Shown here piece after piece: positions 6,538 through 22,830 of a DNA stretch of 23,160 nucleotides. A program made the translations under genes and the position numbers. Below the pieces are notes generated by a model. The model did not search any database. It saw nothing but the letters and a program-made list of their open reading frames with translations, and was not told the DNA's origin. Positions within the stretch are counted from its first letter, which is position 1. Each line of letters begins with the position of its first letter. Origin of the DNA: a virus. Location: the IMG/VR virus record IMGVR_UViG_3300042346_000961, positions 1-23,160 of that record. One strand, written 5' to 3'.

Positions 6538-7557
6538 CTAAACCCTCCACCAAGCCCGCCAGTCCGCCTTGCGCGAAGGAACCGCGTAGGTTTTGAGAAC
6601 GAGCGCCGTCGAAGAATGCCCGAGCTGATGCGCCGTCTTGCCAGCATCCTGGCATCGACCGAGGTGGTAGGTGGCGAACGAATGGCGGAGGGCATTCTCG
6701 GGTAGTTTGGCCCACGGAACGACGCCCTCGTTGTTGAGCCGCTGAATCAGCGCCTCCCGCTCCCGATAAAGTCGGAGCGATTTCGGAGGCACAATCAGGC
6801 CGGATTTCCCTTTGAAAAAATCCTTCCGCTTTTTCAGAGGCTCCGTGAAGTCCACGATGCGCTCAGGCAGGCCGCTTGATTGTTTCGAAACCTCCCGCCG
6901 CACCTCGATCTGGCCGGTTTTCGCATCGACATCCTCCCACCGCATCCTGTGAACCTCGATGGACCTCAACCCCGCAAACGCACCCAGCAAAAACCAAGCG
7001 CGCAAAGCATCCGACATTTCCGAGTTCAAGATCGTTCGCAGTTCCTTCGCCGAGATCAGGGACCGCTTCGACTCCGCCTCCGGCGCAATCACCCGGCGGA
7101 ATGGATTTCGGTCCAGCAACTCCATATCGACGCACCACCGAAAAAACCCCGAAGCATATCGATGCCACCCCGCCCGCGTCGTCGGCGCGCCTTGGATCTT
7201 CGCAAACACCCTCGCCGCTTGCATGGGCGACACCGCCGCCACCGCGCCAGGGAACGCATCCAAAAGCTCCCCACATATTTTTTCCAGCTTCTCACGATGC
7301 CGATCCGAGCTGCCCGCCTTGGAGGCGATGTAATCCCGCACCGCCGACTTCATCGACATACCCCTCGCCTGCTCCTCCGCGAGCGAATCCGTCCCACCCT
7401 TCTGAAGTTTCTCCAAAAGCCCCGGCCCCGCCGCCCAAGCCTCCGCCTCGGTGCGATAAAACCGGCGGATCCTCTTGCCAAAAATTTTCTGCGGAATGGT
7501 CAGCTTCCAAGGCGTCGAAGGCCGCTGCGGGTAAGGTGTCACAAGAAAGGCGCTCAT
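6538..7557 (-). CDS. int: Tyrosine site-specific recombinase (phage integrase)
   Basis: A 339-residue protein starting at ATG 7557 (MSAFLVTPYPQRPSTPWKL). Residues about 65-155 form the SAM-like core-binding domain and 165-330 the catalytic domain. Catalytic residues: R198 in GAFAGLRSIEV, probable K225, R291 in NALRHSFAT, H314 in LGHSS and nucleophile Y324 in LKTYAVP. The box II position normally held by His (HxLRH) is Asn288 here. The enzyme recombines attP with attB by a covalent 3'-phosphotyrosine intermediate. The gene lies right beside the tRNA-type attachment site, and three GTTGCCC repeats occupy the DNA just upstream of its start, so integrase binding may also repress its own expression. 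A longer frame to 7623 runs through those repeats and has no better start. Confidence 0.9.
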   Translation of the reverse strand: MSAFLVTPYPQRPSTPWKLTIPQKIFGKRIRRFYRTEAEAWAAGPGLLEKLQKGGTDSLAEEQARGMSMKSAVRDYIASKAGSSDRHREKLEKICGELLDAFPGAVAAVSPMQAARVFAKIQGAPTTRAGWHRYASGFFRWCVDMELLDRNPFRRVIAPEAESKRSLISAKELRTILNSEMSDALRAWFLLGAFAGLRSIEVHRMRWEDVDAKTGQIEVRREVSKQSSGLPERIVDFTEPLKKRKDFFKGKSGLIVPPKSLRLYREREALIQRLNNEGVVPWAKLPENALRHSFATYHLGRCQDAGKTAHQLGHSSTALVLKTYAVPSRKADWRAWWRV

Positions 7558-7560
7558 GCT

Positions 7561-7589
7561 GTTGCCCAGACTTGTTGCCCGTGTTGCCC
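7561..7589 (+). repeat. Three GTTGCCC direct repeats on the integrase side of attP (candidate arm sites)
   Basis: GTTGCCC occurs at 7561-7567, 7574-7580 and 7583-7589, all in the same orientation, immediately upstream of the integrase start. Together with two copies on the other side of the tRNA segment they resemble the arm-type sites bound by the N-terminal domain of tyrosine integrases. The DNA from 7590 to 7699 otherwise holds nothing I recognise. Confidence 0.5.
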
Positions 7590-7699
7590 GAAATCGCAAA
7601 TATTTTCTTCCAGTAGCCGCCAATAGCCGCCTGTAGTTTCAAGAAGCCAACCACCCGCCGAGCCGCATAAAACCTAGCTCAAATCGTCACAAGTCGCTC

Positions 7700-15124: not shown

Positions 15125-15196
15125 GGTGTCAAATCGGGCGGGCTTCCGAGCGTCTCCTAGAGCGGAGAGCGGAAGGCGGAGGGCGGAAAGATGCGG

Positions 15197-15517
15197 TTAG
15201 ATTTCCGGTTTCAGCTTTCCGGTTTCCGGTCTCTCTACCGCTTCCCATTTACCGAGGGGGCATCGCTCGGTTGCCATGCGGAGCTTGGCCCAGGTGGAGC
15301 AGCCGCACTTGCGGCAGCGGCCCGTGGCGTTCAGTGCCTCGGCATCCCACTCGGGGCAGGCGCGGCAGGTGGCTTCGCGGGCGGCGAGGGCTTCGGGTGG
15401 GGTGGTCAAGAATCCGGAGCGAGCGAAGCGGCCTGTGGCCTGCATGGCGCTACGCATTTGGCGATGAGATTCCCGCAAAGAGTCAGGCATTTTGGCTAAA
15501 AAGTCCTCGTAGGTCAT
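15197..15517 (-). CDS. Zinc-ribbon tail-region protein (106 aa, CPLGKW motif)
   Basis: Start ATG 15517, set by an ATGA overlap with the Cys-rich gene; the frame is open to 15655 but shadows that gene. The N-terminal half is helical (YEDFLAKMPDSLRESHRQMR). The C-terminal half has cysteines C51-x2-C54, C68-x2-C71-x-C73 and C86-PLGKW, consistent with a double zinc-binding knuckle. Proteins with this 'C..C..W...G.C..C.C....K.....CPLGKW' layout occur in phage tail-fibre neighbourhoods; their role is not known to me. It may be a fibre-assembly factor. Confidence 0.65.
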   Translation of the reverse strand: MTYEDFLAKMPDSLRESHRQMRSAMQATGRFARSGFLTTPPEALAAREATCRACPEWDAEALNATGRCRKCGCSTWAKLRMATERCPLGKWEAVERPETGKLKPEI

Positions 15518-16095
15518 GACACGGTGACGGTGAAATTGAACTCTGTAGGACCGCCCATAAAAGGCGGGATGCATTGTGCAGAGATTGTCATTGGATACGA
15601 TCCCCTCGGGTCGAGGCTTGTAATGATTTTCGAGTCTCCCGCGTTTACGCCGCATAAATCTTGCTCACCCATATAATCATATAAAAGAATACCTTGAACA
15701 TATAATGACAAAACCCAGCAACAGCCTTGTGAAAGCGGAGCCCCATAAAAACCATGTCCCGCCCTGTAAATGCTGATCATATACAAGTTATCATAAACCG
15801 GTCCAGGCCCAAAAGCATCCCAATAATCGGCGCAGGTTCTCGGCTCAAGGTTCGTTGGAAAGCCTTGAAGGTTGCATTCATCGCCGGGGCAGACTGCGGC
15901 GGGAAATTGAAATTCAGTCAATCCGCTCACTTGGTCACCGGTCAGGCTAAAATTAAAATCCGCAAGAAATGGCGGGCAATCGCGGTAAGGTTGGAAATCC
16001 CCCCCCCCCCCACAACACGCGCACTCGACGGCGCGGAGGCCGGGGGTGTCGGTTTTGATTTTGATGGCTCCGGAGGATGTGCGGCCGAGGGTCAT
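15514..16095 (-). CDS. Cys-rich tail-region protein containing a G13 homopolymer (193 aa)
   Basis: Start ATG 16095 with GGAGG about 9 nt upstream, 1 nt after the polyglycine gene's stop. The N-terminus is MTLGRTSSGAIKIKTDTPGL, then ECACC-GGGG-D, where four Gly codons are a run of 13 G bases. The rest is a beta-rich, aromatic sequence with 11 Cys in total and a VCPGDEC pair. The middle of the gene (about 15650-15790) is visibly AT-rich compared with the neighbours, suggesting that the body has a different origin. No family is recognised. It sits in the fibre block between the polyglycine protein and the zinc-ribbon protein, so a surface-exposed adhesin or accessory protein is a reasonable guess. 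Confidence 0.65.
   Translation of the reverse strand: MTLGRTSSGAIKIKTDTPGLRAVECACCGGGGDFQPYRDCPPFLADFNFSLTGDQVSGLTEFQFPAAVCPGDECNLQGFPTNLEPRTCADYWDAFGPGPVYDNLYMISIYRAGHGFYGAPLSQGCCWVLSLYVQGILLYDYMGEQDLCGVNAGDSKIITSLDPRGSYPMTISAQCIPPFMGGPTEFNFTVTVS
15999..16011 (-). repeat. 13-base G homopolymer (C13 on plus strand) inside a coding sequence
   Basis: Thirteen consecutive C on the plus strand encode Gly29-Gly32 and the first base of Asp33 in the 193-aa protein. A one-base change would shift the reading frame after codon 32 and lose about 83% of the protein. It is the longest homopolymer I noticed in the window. Confidence 0.9.
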
Positions 16096-16096
16096 G

Positions 16097-16756
16097 TCAG
16101 CATTCCTCCGTGGCGATCCATCCGAGCTCACCATCGATGGATCCAAACACATATTTTCCGTTCGCGGGCACCGCATTGGATGGCTCCCATTTTTTTGTGC
16201 CACCGTTAAAAGTTAAAAGTTGCCCGGTCTCGGAGCCGGTGGCGAATGCTTGCCAGCCGTCGACGGCGTCCCATTGCAGTAGCGCGCCTGGGCTACCGGA
16301 GAATGGAGCCCAAGTTTTTAAGGAATTGTCCCAGCGCAAAAGCTGGCCCTCAACAGATCCAGCTCCCCTTGCTTCCCAGCCTTTCAGTTCGTCCCATTGA
16401 GGAAAAGATCCTCGAGAACTGGTTGAATTACTGCCGCCGCCACTGCCTCCTTCTCCGACTCCATTAACGACACCGCCTCCGAATGGAACCCAGGCTTTTG
16501 CAACGGCGTCCCATTTCAAAAATTGGCCTTCTTTCGAGCCATCTAAAAATTGCGCAGGGCTCCAACTGAGCGATTGGTTGGTATAACCTTTCAGGTAAAA
16601 GTCCGTGATGACCCCGCCGAGAGCTTTCCAAGGGGGGCGCGGGACACACATGCAGGTGTTCCCGCCACCACCGCCACCGCCGCCGCCGCCGCCCCCTCCA
16701 CCGCCTCCTCCACCACCGCCTCCACCGCCTCCTCCACCACCGCCGCCTCCGGGCAT
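16097..16756 (-). CDS. Polyglycine tail-fibre/adhesin protein with W-x-repeats (219 aa)
   Basis: ATG 16756 is preceded by AAGGAGG 8 nt upstream and overlaps the giant gene's stop as TAATG. After MP come 30 consecutive Gly, then NTCMCVPRPPWKALGGVIT. The C-terminal part has about five repeats of the form [GS]-x-x-G-Q-[FL]-L-x-W-D-x-x-x-x-x-W-x-P-F ('EGQFLKWDAVAKAWVPFGG', 'EGQLLRWDNSLKTWAPFSG', 'TGQLLTFNGGTKKWEPSN'), a common tail-fibre repeat. It ends YVFGSIDGELGWIATEEC. Long glycine runs can form polyglycine-II helices, known in T-even phage adhesins (gp38-type). The TEEC ending is shared with the partial gene at the right edge. Confidence 0.78.
   Translation of the reverse strand: MPGGGGGGGGGGGGGGGGGGGGGGGGGGGGGGNTCMCVPRPPWKALGGVITDFYLKGYTNQSLSWSPAQFLDGSKEGQFLKWDAVAKAWVPFGGGVVNGVGEGGSGGGSNSTSSRGSFPQWDELKGWEARGAGSVEGQLLRWDNSLKTWAPFSGSPGALLQWDAVDGWQAFATGSETGQLLTFNGGTKKWEPSNAVPANGKYVFGSIDGELGWIATEEC
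16661..16750 (-). repeat. Glycine-codon (GGN) array with a 24-bp perfect tandem duplication
   Basis: Thirty GGN codons in a row. Within it, 16697-16720 and 16721-16744 are identical 24-bp units (8 codons each) in tandem; the flanks hold degenerate GGC/GGT runs. This can lengthen or shorten in frame by slippage or unequal recombination. Confidence 0.9.
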
Positions 16757-19700
16757 TAGATTGCCCTCCTTATTTCGTAGAGGTCGGCAGCTACATTGAA
16801 TCCTTCGTTTGTTATGTTGACCATGATAGCTTTGGAGTCGAGGTGGACATTATTCACGCAGAGAAGGTATCTATTGCCGGATGTCAAAGCTGGGTTGCCG
16901 CCGGTGGCGGTGCATTTCACGACAAACCATTTGTAAGTAGCGAGGGCGATGTAGGGAACGGTCTGCCCGGCGTAGAAGGTTGGCTTGGGTCCGGCGAAGC
17001 TCGCACCTTGGACGCCGCGAACGGGCGCCGAGGTGTTGCTGGACAGGGCAATGGTTTTCCCGGCTGCAATAGAGTCGGCAGCGTAGCGCTGGGTGTCGTC
17101 GAGTTCGGGGAATGTCGAGGATGAGAAGGTGGTGCCGAGGAAGTCCGGTTGGAAGGCTTCTTGGAAAAATGTGTCGTCGTTGCGCCGGGCGGTGGGGTAG
17201 AGCGCGGCGAGCGGGAGCTTGAGCGTTAGCGGTTTGAGCTCGAGCGCGGTGTAGCCTGGGCGGGATTTGGCGAACGCGTTCGGGCTTTCATCTTGGTAGA
17301 TGACGATATTTTGCGAATCGACGATCTGCACGAGCTTGCGGCCCCATTCTGCAACCCACCACTCATACCAATCAAGCGGGGGGGAGAATGTGCGGAGCGT
17401 GGAGATGTAGTGGCCGGTGCCGCAGGTGGTGGCGTAAATGCCAGGGATTTCCTCGACGATCTCGAGGGTTTCGCCACCGAGCGCGAGACCTTCATAAGCG
17501 CGGTGCGTGGCGGTGTATTGCAGGGTGCCGACGCGTTCCTTGGAACACAGGAGGGTCTGTGTGTCGGGATCAAAAACGACGAGGCCGGTGGTATTTGCTG
17601 CCTGCATCGTGTGGACATTGTCGAGCTTGGCTGGGAGCTCGATGGCATTGCCCGGCCAGTAATTGAAGGTGTAGGTGTAGGTGTCCTCGATTTCGGGGGT
17701 TGGTCGGAACGCGGCGGTGATAGTGAAAGTGCCATCGGCCTGCCCGCTGGGCCAACTGCCTCCGAGATGCAGGATGTCTGAAGGAGAACCTTCGATTTTT
17801 TCGAGAATGTAAAACGGATAATATAGCCCGGCTGGGTTCCACTCTTGGCCGTTGATGGTGGTTTTTGGGGAGCACTCGACGCGGGTGGCGCGGAGGAGGG
17901 TGCTCGGCAGGTTGACTGTGGCGCCGGTAAGTTTGGCGCTGTATTCAGTCTGCGGGCCAAAGATAGTGACGAGGCTATTTGTGACCGGGGTGGCGAGGAG
18001 GATTTGGTTGTTGGCAAATGAGTAGTCGGCCGGGGCAAGCGCCACGCCATCCACGGACACGCCGTCGATGCTGGGCCAGATGTCTTTTGAGATCGCGAGC
18101 TCGTTCCCTGCGGTAAGTGACATGCCACGCATTTTCACTTCTCCCAAGGAGGTTGCGAAATATGCCACCACTGCCGAGGAAGTGATGTTGCTTTTGAAAA
18201 GAATCGTGGCGGTGGGTTTATCGAAATAAAAATCAGGAATCTCCTCGGTGCCTTTGTCGGGGCTCACGACCGAGCAGGTGAGGATTTCAAAATCGGGCGA
18301 GTCGATCGGGATTGTGGTCTGCACGCTCGAGGAGGCCGCCACCTGCTTGGTTATGCTGACTCCGAAATCGATGAAATTCCGCGAGGCGCTGCCGACGATG
18401 CTGATCGCGCCTTCGGTTTCTGGGTTCGTAAAATAAAAGCACTGGCGATCCGGGAAAAAAACGAAATCCTGTCCTGCGGTGAGCGGCGTGGTGATCTGTG
18501 CTCCTTCGACCTCGCTGGTGATGGTGACATTGGAGACGCCGGAGAGCCAGCCGCGCTGGCCTGGGAGGCTGGATTGGGTCGGGCGGTGATAGAGCGGATC
18601 GGTTAGCGGCTCGCGGAGCGTGAGCGTGGATTCCTCGGCCTGCTCGCCAGTGAGGACGATCTGGCGGGCGGCCAGGTAGGGAGCGAGGCTGTTGCCACCG
18701 GAGGCGATGGGGCCGCTGACACTGCCGCCTCCACCGCTGAGGTTGCCGCGAATGACGGAATTCTGGATTTGGAGCGGGAGGGTGATCGTGCGGATCGCGG
18801 CCGTGGCGGCGTCCTCCCACTTGATTTCCAGGAGGGCGTCAATCTGGTCTGGCTCGTCGGCGAAAAGTTCTTGGACGGGATCGGTGGAGAGGTCGAGGAT
18901 GCCCGAGTCGGCATCGGCATAGGCGAGGTATTCGCCTCCGTAGGTCTGCTTGATGCCAACCGAGATGTTGTAGTCGGCGGGGACGGAGAAGGTCGTGGTG
19001 TCGCTGACGAAGACGATCGTGAAGGGGGTGCGGTCGTCACGCTTGAGCGTCATCTTCGACAGCACGGATCGCGTGTTGGCTTTCGAGAGCATCTTGCGGC
19101 CTTTCGGGTCCACATAAAGTTCAAGGGTGTTCCACGAGACGGTGGTGAGGATGAAGACGCCTGTGGCAGTGAGGCTGTTTTCGTCCACCGCAGTCAGCGA
19201 AATATAGTGCGTGCCGGTGAAGGTGGGCGTGCCGGTGATCTGCCCGGTGGCGGAGTCGATCGAGGCCCAATCTGGCAAGGAGGTGGCATACCAAGAGACA
19301 GGCTCGCCGGAGAGCACTTGCGGGGTGGCGGTGAATGACGAGCCAACCGTGGCGGTGAAGGATTGCGAAGTTGGAAGCTGCATGGTGATCGTGGGTGTGG
19401 TCCCGCCGCCGCCGCCGTTGCTGGCGGAGATGACGAGCGAGACATTGGTGGGATCGCTGGTGCCTCCGGGTCCGGTGGCTGTCACCGAAAAGGTCGTGGT
19501 GCCTGCGGTGGTCGGCGTCCCGGCGATGACTCCGCTTGAGGAGTTTGTTGCTGCCCAAGCGGGCAGGGCGGTGAATGCGTAGGAGGTGGCGGGGCGGTTT
19601 GCGCTGTCGCTGATAGCTACGCCTGCCGAGAATGCTGTGCCGACAGTGCCGTTGAGAGTTTGGTTCGGAGTGATGAGAGGCTTACCTGCCGAGATGGTAA

Positions 19701-22700
19701 ATCCGACGCTCTGTGAGGCTCCGCTCCCTGCGCCATTTGATGCGGCGATGCTCGCAGTGAATGAACCAATGGTTGTGGGTGCTCCGGTGATGGCCCCAGT
19801 GGAGGAGTTGATCGACAACCCGGCGGGCAGGGCCGTGGCAGCCCATGCGGTGGCAGGGCGATCGAGAGCATCATCAAGCGCGATATTTGCCGAAAACGCA
19901 TCCCCGACCTTGCCGGTGAATGTCTGCCCGGCGGTGATGAGCGGCACGCCGATGGCGATCGAAAGCGTGGCTGTCTCGGTGTCCGAGCCGCCGGGTCCGG
20001 TGGCTGTGAGGGTGATTGTGGTCGTCTCGACATCCTGAGGTGTTCCGGTGATCTCGCCGGTGGATGAATTGATCGTGGCCCAACTTGGCAACCCCGTGGC
20101 CGACCAGCTAGTCACAGGCCGGTTTGTCGCATCAGTCAGCGAAAAGGTTTTGCTAAATGCCGTTCCCACAGCCCCGCTGGCAGTCTGCCCTGCGGTGATG
20201 ATCGGCACGCCATCGGCGATCGTGAAGGCGATACTTGTTGCGGTGCCTGCGCCCCCGCCGCCCGTGGCCGTGAAGGAGGCTGTAAACGAACCCCTGGTCG
20301 TCGGCGTGCCCGAGATCGCGCCTGTGGTCGTATTGAGCGACAGCCCCGCAGGAAGCCCCGTGGCACTCCAAGAGGTCGCAGGCCGATCCAGCGCGTCATC
20401 AAGAGCAGGCGTTTGAGTGAACGCCACGCCCACCTTGCCCGAAAAACTCTGCCCGCTTGTGATAATAGGCGCACCCACAGCGATCGAGATTGTTGCCGTC
20501 TCGGTGTCTGTGCCTCCCGGCCCAGTAGCGGTAAGGGTGATAGTTGTGCTGCCGCCGTCCTGGGGTGTGCCGGTGATCACTCCGGTGCTGGAATTGATCG
20601 AGGCCCAACTTGGCAGGCCCGTAGCACTCCATGATGTCACAGGGCGGGTTGCCGAGTCGGTGAGCGAGAATGTTTTGGAAAATGCCTCGCCAACCTTTCC
20701 TGATCCGGTCTGGTTCGGCGGGATGATTGGCGCTCCTTCGGAGATCGTGAAGGCTACGCTTGTCGCTGGGCTTGTTCCTCCGCTGCCCGTGGCCGTGAAG
20801 GATGCAGTGAAGCTTCCTTTCGTGGTTGGTGTGCCGGTGATTGCCCCCGTGCTGGTGTTTAGTGAGAGGCCGGTGGGGATGCCTATGGCGCTCCATGAGG
20901 TCGCTGGGCGATCTACGGCGTCAGTGAGCGAGATCGTTCCAGAAAACGCATCGCCGACCTTGGCGGTGAATGTCTGCCCGGCGGTGATGAGCGGCACTCC
21001 GATGGCGATTGAGAGCGTCGCCGTCTCGGTGTCGGATCCGCCGGGGCCAGTAGCCGTGAGGGTGATTGTGGTGCTGCCGCTGTCTTGCGGTGTGCCGGTA
21101 ATCTCTCCGGTGCTGGAATTGATGGAGGCCCAGCTCGGCAGTCCGGTGGCAGACCATGAGGTCACAGGGCGGTTGGTGCTGTCGGTGAGCGAGAATGTCT
21201 TTGAAAATGCTTCGCCGACTTTACCTGATCCGGTCTGGTTCGGTGGGATGATTGGCGTCCCCTCTGAAATAGAAAAACTCACATCCGTCGCCGGGCTTGT
21301 TCCTCCGTTCCCTGTCGCTGTGATGGAGGCAGTAAAACTCCCCTTCGCTGTTGGCGTGCCGGTGATTGCACCCGTGCTAGTATTCAGCGTCAGCCCAGCA
21401 GGCAAGCCCGTGGCACTCCATGAATCCACAGGTCGATCCAAGGAATCAGTCAGCGCGATCGTTCCAGAAAATGCCACGCCCACTTTTCCCGAAAAGGTCT
21501 GATCCGCCGTAATGCTCGGCGGCCCCACCTCGATCAAGATTATCGCCGTGGTCGGCTCGCTCGTGCCTCCCGGGCCAGTAGCGGTGAGGGTGATTGTAGT
21601 CGTCTCGACATCCTGCGGCGTTCCCGTGATCTGGCCAGTGGAGGAATTGATCGAGGCCCAAGTTGGAAGTCCCGTGGCACTCCACGAAGTCACAGGGCGG
21701 TTTGCAGAGTCGGTGAGCGAGAATGTTTTGGAGAAAGCCTCGCCGACTTTCCCCGAAGCCGTCTGCCCAGCCGTGATAATCGGCACAGCATCCTCGATGG
21801 AGTAAATTTCGATAGATTTCGAGTTAGTCGTCGGCCAAATATCGAAAGCAATGTATTCGGCATTTTCCGAAATATCCACTGCAGAGCCGAAATAGTCTAA
21901 ACCCGAGGGGCGCGGAATCTCAACGCTGCGCGATGTCACCCAGTCGCTGCCAGTCCATGAATATGTGTCTACAGAAAAACGATCTCGGTGAACAAGGAAA
22001 GATCCGTCGGCCGATAATGCTATTGAGGTCTGTGATATCGACTGAGAAAGATTGATAGCGCTGCCAGCCTCAACCCACGCGCCAGAGATTAAATCGTAAG
22101 TCCTGATTGTCGTCTGGCTCAAGGCCACAACTCGGGTTCCGGTATTGTTTATTTTAACCGAATAAAGCGTAGAGTCTGGCAGCGTGATATTTTCGCCAAC
22201 ACGAACAGTTTCCGTGCCGGAAACTCCTTGAAAAACAGAGATTGTTTTTAGCGAATTATAGCTGCCATAGACAACGCAATAAGTTCCGTTTCGGGATAAA
22301 GAACAATTTCCTGCAAAATCATTATTTGCGCCATATCTTTTTGACTGATTAAATGAGTTGTATGGTTCAAATTCGTTAAGTTTCCCAAAACTTACATATT
22401 TATAGTTGTATGAAACGCCTTGAGATGTTTGCCCCTGCGAATGCGCAGAATAAGCGATATACCCGTTGCTAGTCGCATCGAAGCCATATAGAGTGAGGTT
22501 ATTAGTCCGTGCTACGAGTGTATAAAGTTGACCTCCCGGAGCCCAATATATATAGATTCCGCTGCCCACCAAGTAAGCATAATATTGCCCGCTGGAATCG
22601 ATTGGTAAGCACTTTTGTTGAATGCCGCTGAAAGATATATCTGACTCCGGAAGGCTTATCGTTCTCAGTAAGTGCAAACTAAAGTTAGGCTCGTTAAATT

Positions 22701-22830
22701 GCCATCCACTGTAGGTTTCATTTGTTGAAAATGTAAGATACTCTTGGGATGAAATAGTTAAACTATTAAATCTTTCAAAATCTGCAACTGAGACAGACCC
22801 GAGCCGGTTCAACAAGACTGGTGTGCTCAT
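16756..22830 (-). CDS. Giant modular tail fibre/adhesin: propeller-like head, ten Ig-like (He_PIG) repeats, long C-terminal region (2024 aa)
   Basis: The start is ATG 22830 (MSTPVLLNRLGSV). Residues 1-349 have repeated strand motifs such as LSRNGTYCVVYGS, INNTGTRVVALS, LSADGSFLVHRD and ISENAEYIAFD, like blades of a beta-propeller. Residues 350 to about 1230 carry ten tandem Ig-like repeats of 87-88 residues (nine close copies, the tenth divergent) with the He_PIG signature G-x-x-x-x-x-S-T-G-x-I-T-G-T-P. Residues 1236 to about 1365 (LELYVDPKGRKMLSKAN ... IQNSVIRGN) match the first 135 residues of the 543-aa fibre. The remaining 660 residues are beta-rich with no recognised motif and end LYEIRRAI. 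The Ig array is probably a spacer holding the head away from the tail, for receptor contact. The head DNA is much more AT-rich than the rest. No Shine-Dalgarno is visible before the start. Confidence 0.85.
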   Translation of the reverse strand: MSTPVLLNRLGSVSVADFERFNSLTISSQEYLTFSTNETYSGWQFNEPNFSLHLLRTISLPESDISFSGIQQKCLPIDSSGQYYAYLVGSGIYIYWAPGGQLYTLVARTNNLTLYGFDATSNGYIAYSAHSQGQTSQGVSYNYKYVSFGKLNEFEPYNSFNQSKRYGANNDFAGNCSLSRNGTYCVVYGSYNSLKTISVFQGVSGTETVRVGENITLPDSTLYSVKINNTGTRVVALSQTTIRTYDLISGAWVEAGSAINLSQSISQTSIALSADGSFLVHRDRFSVDTYSWTGSDWVTSRSVEIPRPSGLDYFGSAVDISENAEYIAFDIWPTTNSKSIEIYSIEDAVPIITAGQTASGKVGEAFSKTFSLTDSANRPVTSWSATGLPTWASINSSTGQITGTPQDVETTTITLTATGPGGTSEPTTAIILIEVGPPSITADQTFSGKVGVAFSGTIALTDSLDRPVDSWSATGLPAGLTLNTSTGAITGTPTAKGSFTASITATGNGGTSPATDVSFSISEGTPIIPPNQTGSGKVGEAFSKTFSLTDSTNRPVTSWSATGLPSWASINSSTGEITGTPQDSGSTTITLTATGPGGSDTETATLSIAIGVPLITAGQTFTAKVGDAFSGTISLTDAVDRPATSWSAIGIPTGLSLNTSTGAITGTPTTKGSFTASFTATGSGGTSPATSVAFTISEGAPIIPPNQTGSGKVGEAFSKTFSLTDSATRPVTSWSATGLPSWASINSSTGVITGTPQDGGSTTITLTATGPGGTDTETATISIAVGAPIITSGQSFSGKVGVAFTQTPALDDALDRPATSWSATGLPAGLSLNTTTGAISGTPTTRGSFTASFTATGGGGAGTATSIAFTIADGVPIITAGQTASGAVGTAFSKTFSLTDATNRPVTSWSATGLPSWATINSSTGEITGTPQDVETTTITLTATGPGGSDTETATLSIAIGVPLITAGQTFTGKVGDAFSANIALDDALDRPATAWAATALPAGLSINSSTGAITGAPTTIGSFTASIAASNGAGSGASQSVGFTISAGKPLITPNQTLNGTVGTAFSAGVAISDSANRPATSYAFTALPAWAATNSSSGVIAGTPTTAGTTTFSVTATGPGGTSDPTNVSLVISASNGGGGGTTPTITMQLPTSQSFTATVGSSFTATPQVLSGEPVSWYATSLPDWASIDSATGQITGTPTFTGTHYISLTAVDENSLTATGVFILTTVSWNTLELYVDPKGRKMLSKANTRSVLSKMTLKRDDRTPFTIVFVSDTTTFSVPADYNISVGIKQTYGGEYLAYADADSGILDLSTDPVQELFADEPDQIDALLEIKWEDAATAAIRTITLPLQIQNSVIRGNLSGGGGSVSGPIASGGNSLAPYLAARQIVLTGEQAEESTLTLREPLTDPLYHRPTQSSLPGQRGWLSGVSNVTITSEVEGAQITTPLTAGQDFVFFPDRQCFYFTNPETEGAISIVGSASRNFIDFGVSITKQVAASSSVQTTIPIDSPDFEILTCSVVSPDKGTEEIPDFYFDKPTATILFKSNITSSAVVAYFATSLGEVKMRGMSLTAGNELAISKDIWPSIDGVSVDGVALAPADYSFANNQILLATPVTNSLVTIFGPQTEYSAKLTGATVNLPSTLLRATRVECSPKTTINGQEWNPAGLYYPFYILEKIEGSPSDILHLGGSWPSGQADGTFTITAAFRPTPEIEDTYTYTFNYWPGNAIELPAKLDNVHTMQAANTTGLVVFDPDTQTLLCSKERVGTLQYTATHRAYEGLALGGETLEIVEEIPGIYATTCGTGHYISTLRTFSPPLDWYEWWVAEWGRKLVQIVDSQNIVIYQDESPNAFAKSRPGYTALELKPLTLKLPLAALYPTARRNDDTFFQEAFQPDFLGTTFSSSTFPELDDTQRYAADSIAAGKTIALSSNTSAPVRGVQGASFAGPKPTFYAGQTVPYIALATYKWFVVKCTATGGNPALTSGNRYLLCVNNVHLDSKAIMVNITNEGFNVAADLYEIRRAI
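16765..16771 (-). promoter_or_regulatory. Strong ribosome-binding site for the polyglycine gene
   Basis: AAGGAGG on the minus strand, 8 nt before ATG 16756, within the last codons of the giant gene. It is the best Shine-Dalgarno in the fibre block and suggests the polyglycine protein is made in higher amount than its neighbours. Confidence 0.7.

Follow-up and report, generated by a model that had tools for sequence, protein, structure and literature searches.

Genes at the locus

The DNA analyzed (the window), a viral record, comprises 23,160 bases and contains an amidase gene and a gene of the phage integrase family. The latter (Phage_integrase, PF00589; positions 6538-7623), together with a gene for an MT-A70-type methyltransferase domain (PF05063; positions 1447-2622), suggests that the phage is temperate. 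The feature of interest is a run of 13 G's in a gene for a protein of 193 amino acids. This gene is separated by a single base from an upstream gene for a 219-amino-acid protein, and its stop codon is overlapped (ATGA) by a small CxxC gene (Table 1). Neither the 193-amino-acid protein (Pfam and PHROGs) nor the 219-amino-acid protein matched a known family, but PHROGs assignments placed tail genes on both sides of the former, which confirms the tail-region location given in an earlier note on this DNA. The 219-amino-acid protein has about five repeats of the type Q-L-L-x-W-D..W-x-P-F. Its C terminus, ..GWIATEEC, is common to the proteins encoded upstream in relatives, which otherwise differ.

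Table 1. Features at the G tract and in its surroundings
Feature	Positions	Strand	Evidence
G13 homopolymer, seam linker between leader and body	15999..16011	-	Same-site tracts in relatives
Putative exchangeable tail adhesin gene, 193 aa, ATG start, in frame	15514..16095	-	ORF; 73 distinct relatives
Constant N-terminal leader, 28 aa (MTLGRTSSGAIKIKTDTPGLRAVECACC), with near-invariant end TGCGCGTGTTGT; predicted disordered	16012..16095	-	
Exchangeable beta-rich body; at least 30 C-terminal types in the family	15514..15998	-	Clusters, alignment, AlphaFold2
Small CxxC gene, phrog_13558 (function unknown), start taken at MTYEDF	15197..15517	-	
Upstream tail gene, 219 aa	16097..16756	-	30 Gly at start, ..GWIATEEC end
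Hairpin-type repeat, GAGACCGGAAACCGGAAAG family, at end of linked small gene (approximate boundaries)	15160..15245	-	
Upstream 2024-aa tail protein, tandem putative Ig (He_PIG) domains	16756..22830	-	phrog_8763; PF05345

The run reads C13 on the plus strand and G13 on the coding strand, where the sequence across it is TGT TGT GGG GGG GGG GGG GAT; the G's spell Gly29 to Gly32 and the first base of Asp33. The coordinates of the run, the codons that it occupies (29 to 33 of 193), and the open frame of this copy at length 13 were all as the earlier note had described them. The next-longest G or C run in the window is 7, and a first-order Markov estimate from dinucleotides gives only ∼0.002 expected runs of 13 or more.

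Computed translations kept the frame at tract lengths of 10, 13, and 16, and the length of 13, a consensus-contig figure like all tract lengths given here, is not secure against 10 or 16. Frame-breaking lengths gave products of 45 to 52 amino acids overall and of 46 to 51 amino acids for lengths 11, 12, 14, and 15, with a 50-amino-acid product at length 12 and a 47-amino-acid product at length 14. The tract is a pure homopolymer of slippable length at which a frame-breaking change in length is computed to truncate the protein.

A constant leader followed by exchangeable bodies

A protein search of IMG/VR yielded 29 loci, many of them similar only over residues 1 to 24 to 1 to 31. An alignment scan with the leader reached 182 loci, 80 of which were kept, and 73 distinct genes remained after the removal of duplicates. 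Common to these 73 viral genes is a leader of 27 to 30 residues, MTLGRTSSGAIKIKTD-GGLRAVECACC with small variations. Behind it lie at least 30 clusters of bodies that have no similarity to each other at an E value of 1e-5; the type found in the window has 16 members and is accompanied by the small CxxC gene. The final bases of the leader, TGCGCGTGTTGT, are 89 to 100% conserved per base as DNA, in part due to the selection of members by that motif, and conservation drops to 30 to 50% within a few bases past it. The G tract occupies the first codons after the leader, i.e., the seam between leader and body.

In the AlphaFold2 model of the window protein, pLDDT was 40 to 48 over residues 1 to 30 and mostly ∼90 from residue 41 onward, and models of two different body types had confident beta-rich bodies with leader pLDDT values near 45. 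The body in the window had no Foldseek match at an E value of ≤0.001 in PDB or BFVD. The label adhesin, introduced by the earlier note, is given by no family model, and no family or fold match in Pfam, PHROGs, PDB, or BFVD supports such a role. However, from the position and the variability of the body we infer that it determines the host, and the gene is referred to here as a putative adhesin gene.

The leader ends in CxCC, and a few residues further on most bodies start with CxC or CxxC; in the window (region 15970 to 16020), one of these cysteines is a tyrosine. The seam may therefore hold a metal site or disulfides.

No similar DNA or protein was detected among 50,697 named phages, and a bacterial-genome scan that used the full-length protein gave no match. 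The leader alignment detected relatives in two contigs of metagenome-assembled genomes (MAGs), titled Verrucomicrobia (Lac Pavin) and Spartobacteria, and the hosts are therefore probably Verrucomicrobiota.

Recombination at the seam and hairpin repeats around the cassette

Comparison of pairs of related genes revealed differences in identity between leader and body. The bodies of L101 and L137 share 99.6% identity (564 bases), compared to 85.2% for the leaders, and the level of identity switches within the conserved leader end. Leader and body are 70.0% and 97.9% identical, respectively, in L142 versus L163 and 91.7% and 98.7% identical in L006 versus L048. These alignments show, at the level of sequence, that leader and body recombine at the seam; the G tract marks that junction.

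An insert of 39 to 136 bases, in most cases hairpin forming, lies between the end of the upstream gene (..ATEEC stop) and the leader ATG in 35 of the 67 members with a recognizable upstream gene end (for example, L060, L093, L053, and L101); in the remaining members the gap is 2 to 6 bases. The inserts include several unrelated repeat families. Nearly all occurrences of the motifs scanned lie within ∼120 bases of the gene on its upstream side or 265 to 402 bases after it; the latter position is beyond the linked small gene, and the window has a repeat there as well. Bodies that are 98.7 to 99.5% identical occur with different inserts or with none. Of 21 sampled genomes from the family to which the Lac Pavin MAG belongs (Verrucomicrobiota), 14 have dispersed copies of one of the motifs, CACGGAGANCACGGAG, whereas its reversed control was found in none. 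The hairpin repeats may drive cassette exchange, affect transcription, or merely mark sites that tolerate insertion. Multiple cassettes in a shufflon-like array were also considered and rejected; there is at most one leader per locus.

G runs at the seam in related viruses

Tracts at the same site were found in L070 (G13), in L072 and L086 (G11), and in L053, L129, and L164 (G8), the last three being genes with three further body types. The family loci total 706,817 bases and contain 15 G or C runs of at least 8, 6 of which lie at the seam (four body types), and 4 runs of at least 10, 3 of which (G13, G13, and G11) lie at the seam, all in frame. Seam tracts of at least 8 are present in 6 of the 73 members and tracts of at least 11 in 3. 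Most members have no glycine run at the seam, and L003 and L039, the bodies of which are 85 to 87% identical to that of the window, have GPTDFQPC or GSTFDYPC there in place of a tract. The only G or C run of at least 10 outside the seam in the family loci is a C15 in L053, ∼10.7 kb downstream of the gene start and near runs of G8 and G9.

L070 and L072/L086 were found by a pattern scan and, independently, by the leader scan. Two seam-directed scans add some ascertainment bias to the counts, mainly for L164, but the three longest tracts are free of it: the analysis started from the window, and the leader scan also picked up the other two. A wider pattern (TGYTGY followed by G10) added no further family members. 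A search for genomes with the flank of the window but a different tract length returned none besides L070, and the flank of the G11 tract was found only in L072, L086, and L196. The window and L070 have related backbones (83 to 87% over several kilobases), and their G13 tracts may be the product of a single event.

The tract might be a neutral accident of codon choice, a glycine linker that happens to use GGG and is stable and without consequence. Glycines often serve as linker residues at the seam, where the first codon past the leader is usually GGG. However, when seams were simulated 3,000 times with the codon usage of the bodies, the mean number of members with runs of at least 8 was 0.66, compared to 6 seen, and with runs of at least 11 it was 0.04, compared to 3 seen; neither observed count was reached in any simulation. 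GGG accounts for 64% of the glycine codons at the seam, versus 21% in the bodies and 7% in the leaders, and for 46 of the 89 seam glycine codons that remain when the first codon is left out. Polyglycine in the neighboring gene avoids G runs: its stretch of 30 glycines is encoded by 12 GGC, 9 GGT, 7 GGA, and 2 GGG codons, and its longest G run is 5. Thus, a homopolymer is not required for this phage to encode polyglycine, and the seam differs in this respect. Glycine preference and the local codon bias of the shared stub could account for part of the homopolymer excess, but as a full explanation a codon accident seems quite improbable. The bodies of L021 and L064 are 95% identical and their seams differ by one GGGGGT unit, a difference of the kind that slippage would produce. 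Pure tracts recur at the same site in some relatives beyond what codon usage predicts; L003, L039, and most other members lack one.

Probable slippage and possible switching

Because related viruses have similar runs at the same joint, the seam is, as judged from sequence comparison, a real slippage-prone hotspot, and the consensus contigs make slippage there likely. It could be argued that the tract is an artifact of sequencing or assembly, produced by poly-G in two-color chemistry or recorded with the wrong length, since the window is a metagenomic viral record and poly-G is error prone. However, contigs assembled from other metagenomes have this type of tract at the same site, with base-for-base agreement between two of them, and the frame on both sides of the tract is conserved relative to homologues. 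The artifact reading is largely refuted, and we consider it very improbable.

L072 and L086, which come from two metagenomes, are 99.98% identical over 5.5 kb, and both have G11. L196 (IMGVR_UViG_3300033995_000656), from a third metagenome, is 100% identical to L086 over 8,738 bases, and its contig starts with GGGTATAATT, i.e., it breaks inside the G tract. The break may reflect mixed tract lengths, at which an assembler may stop, or merely poor sequencing through poly-G, which can also break a contig. In the comparison of tract lengths in related phages that the earlier note had proposed as a check, lengths of 13, 11, and 8 were found among relatives, and the near-identical L072 and L086 have the same G11.

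The earlier note had suggested a phase-variable phage gene. In its full form this would be a selected contingency locus that often flips the adhesin body OFF and ON, so that a burst mixes adhesin-plus and adhesin-minus genomes. The tract is a pure homopolymer on which the frame depends, it recurs in several phages, and its length exceeds the class of polyG/polyC tracts of seven or more that were surveyed as potentially variable in Campylobacter jejuni (PMC4965091). Because the tract sits after the leader, a frameshift removes the whole body, and the computed stubs agree with the prediction that slippage would switch the protein off. Yet all seam tracts of at least 8 are in frame, no OFF member was present among 72 complete genes, tracts of at least 11 are confined to the few members noted above, and the identical G11 of two metagenomes also speaks against frequent flipping. 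ON/OFF phase variation is credible, with no copy seen switched off; frequent, selected flipping seems unlikely.

We consider it probable that the tract is a joint prone to slippage in an exchangeable, putative tail adhesin. The constant, flexible leader of ∼28 residues would dock the protein on the virion, and the body of ∼110 to 260 residues, which probably binds the host, is exchanged among phages, as the alignments show at sequence level, by recombination that passes through the conserved leader end. The seam, past the last conserved Cys-Cys, would be under little sequence constraint, and GGG there would therefore have grown repeatedly by replication slippage into G8 to G13, as the recurrence of the tracts and the codon bias suggest. 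Tracts of 11 to 13 would slip often, producing in-frame variants in linker length and some frame-shifted genomes without a body. The frame-shifted fraction could be a selected switch or a mutational load.

Comparison with known systems

The tract has the anatomy of the poly-G contingency loci found in bacteria such as Campylobacter and Neisseria: a pure in-frame G tract of slippable length precedes a functional domain, and a frameshift leaves a short stub. Unlike those loci, it lies in a phage gene, is found in a minority of family members, and is known from consensus contigs, in which population polymorphism was not seen. Phages vary their tropism via invertases, diversity-generating retroelements, and recombination. 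In the literature searched, to the extent that the sources were available, homopolymer slippage in phage adhesin or tail genes was not found, and the phase variation described was on the host side.

The adhesin gp38 of T-even and S16-like phages is a small, detachable protein at the fiber tip, with glycine-rich motifs and hypervariable segments. Like the gene for gp38, the gene described here appears to be a small separate gene right after a tail gene, with a constant attachment part, a variable remainder, and a glycine-rich element. However, the family replaces the whole body behind a 28-residue leader rather than loops on a conserved scaffold, and its glycines form a short linker that is optional, whereas the long polyglycine belongs to the neighboring gene. 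The structure of S16 gp38 is cited in PMC6957217. No sequence or fold homology to gp38 was found with PHROGs, Pfam, or Foldseek against PDB and BFVD, and the resemblance appears to be one of gene position and small size.

With a constant N terminus, unrelated C termini, and recombination at the boundary between them, the protein may work like a modular phage receptor-binding protein, host binding being putative. It differs from such proteins in its anchor, a very short peptide that is rich in Cys, is predicted to be disordered, and has a near-invariant DNA end, and in the hairpin repeats that are often present at the cassette border.

Implications

The results define an apparently undescribed, widespread gene, a leader plus a swappable body, in phages that probably infect uncultured Verrucomicrobiota. 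That the tract at the seam is a contingency locus, encoded by the phage and toggling an exchangeable adhesin in a large phage family, probably of Verrucomicrobiota, is a doubtful proposition at present. If true, swapping of bodies by recombination and fast ON/OFF or linker-length variation would be combined at one position. The family makes the question of switching testable from existing metagenome reads.
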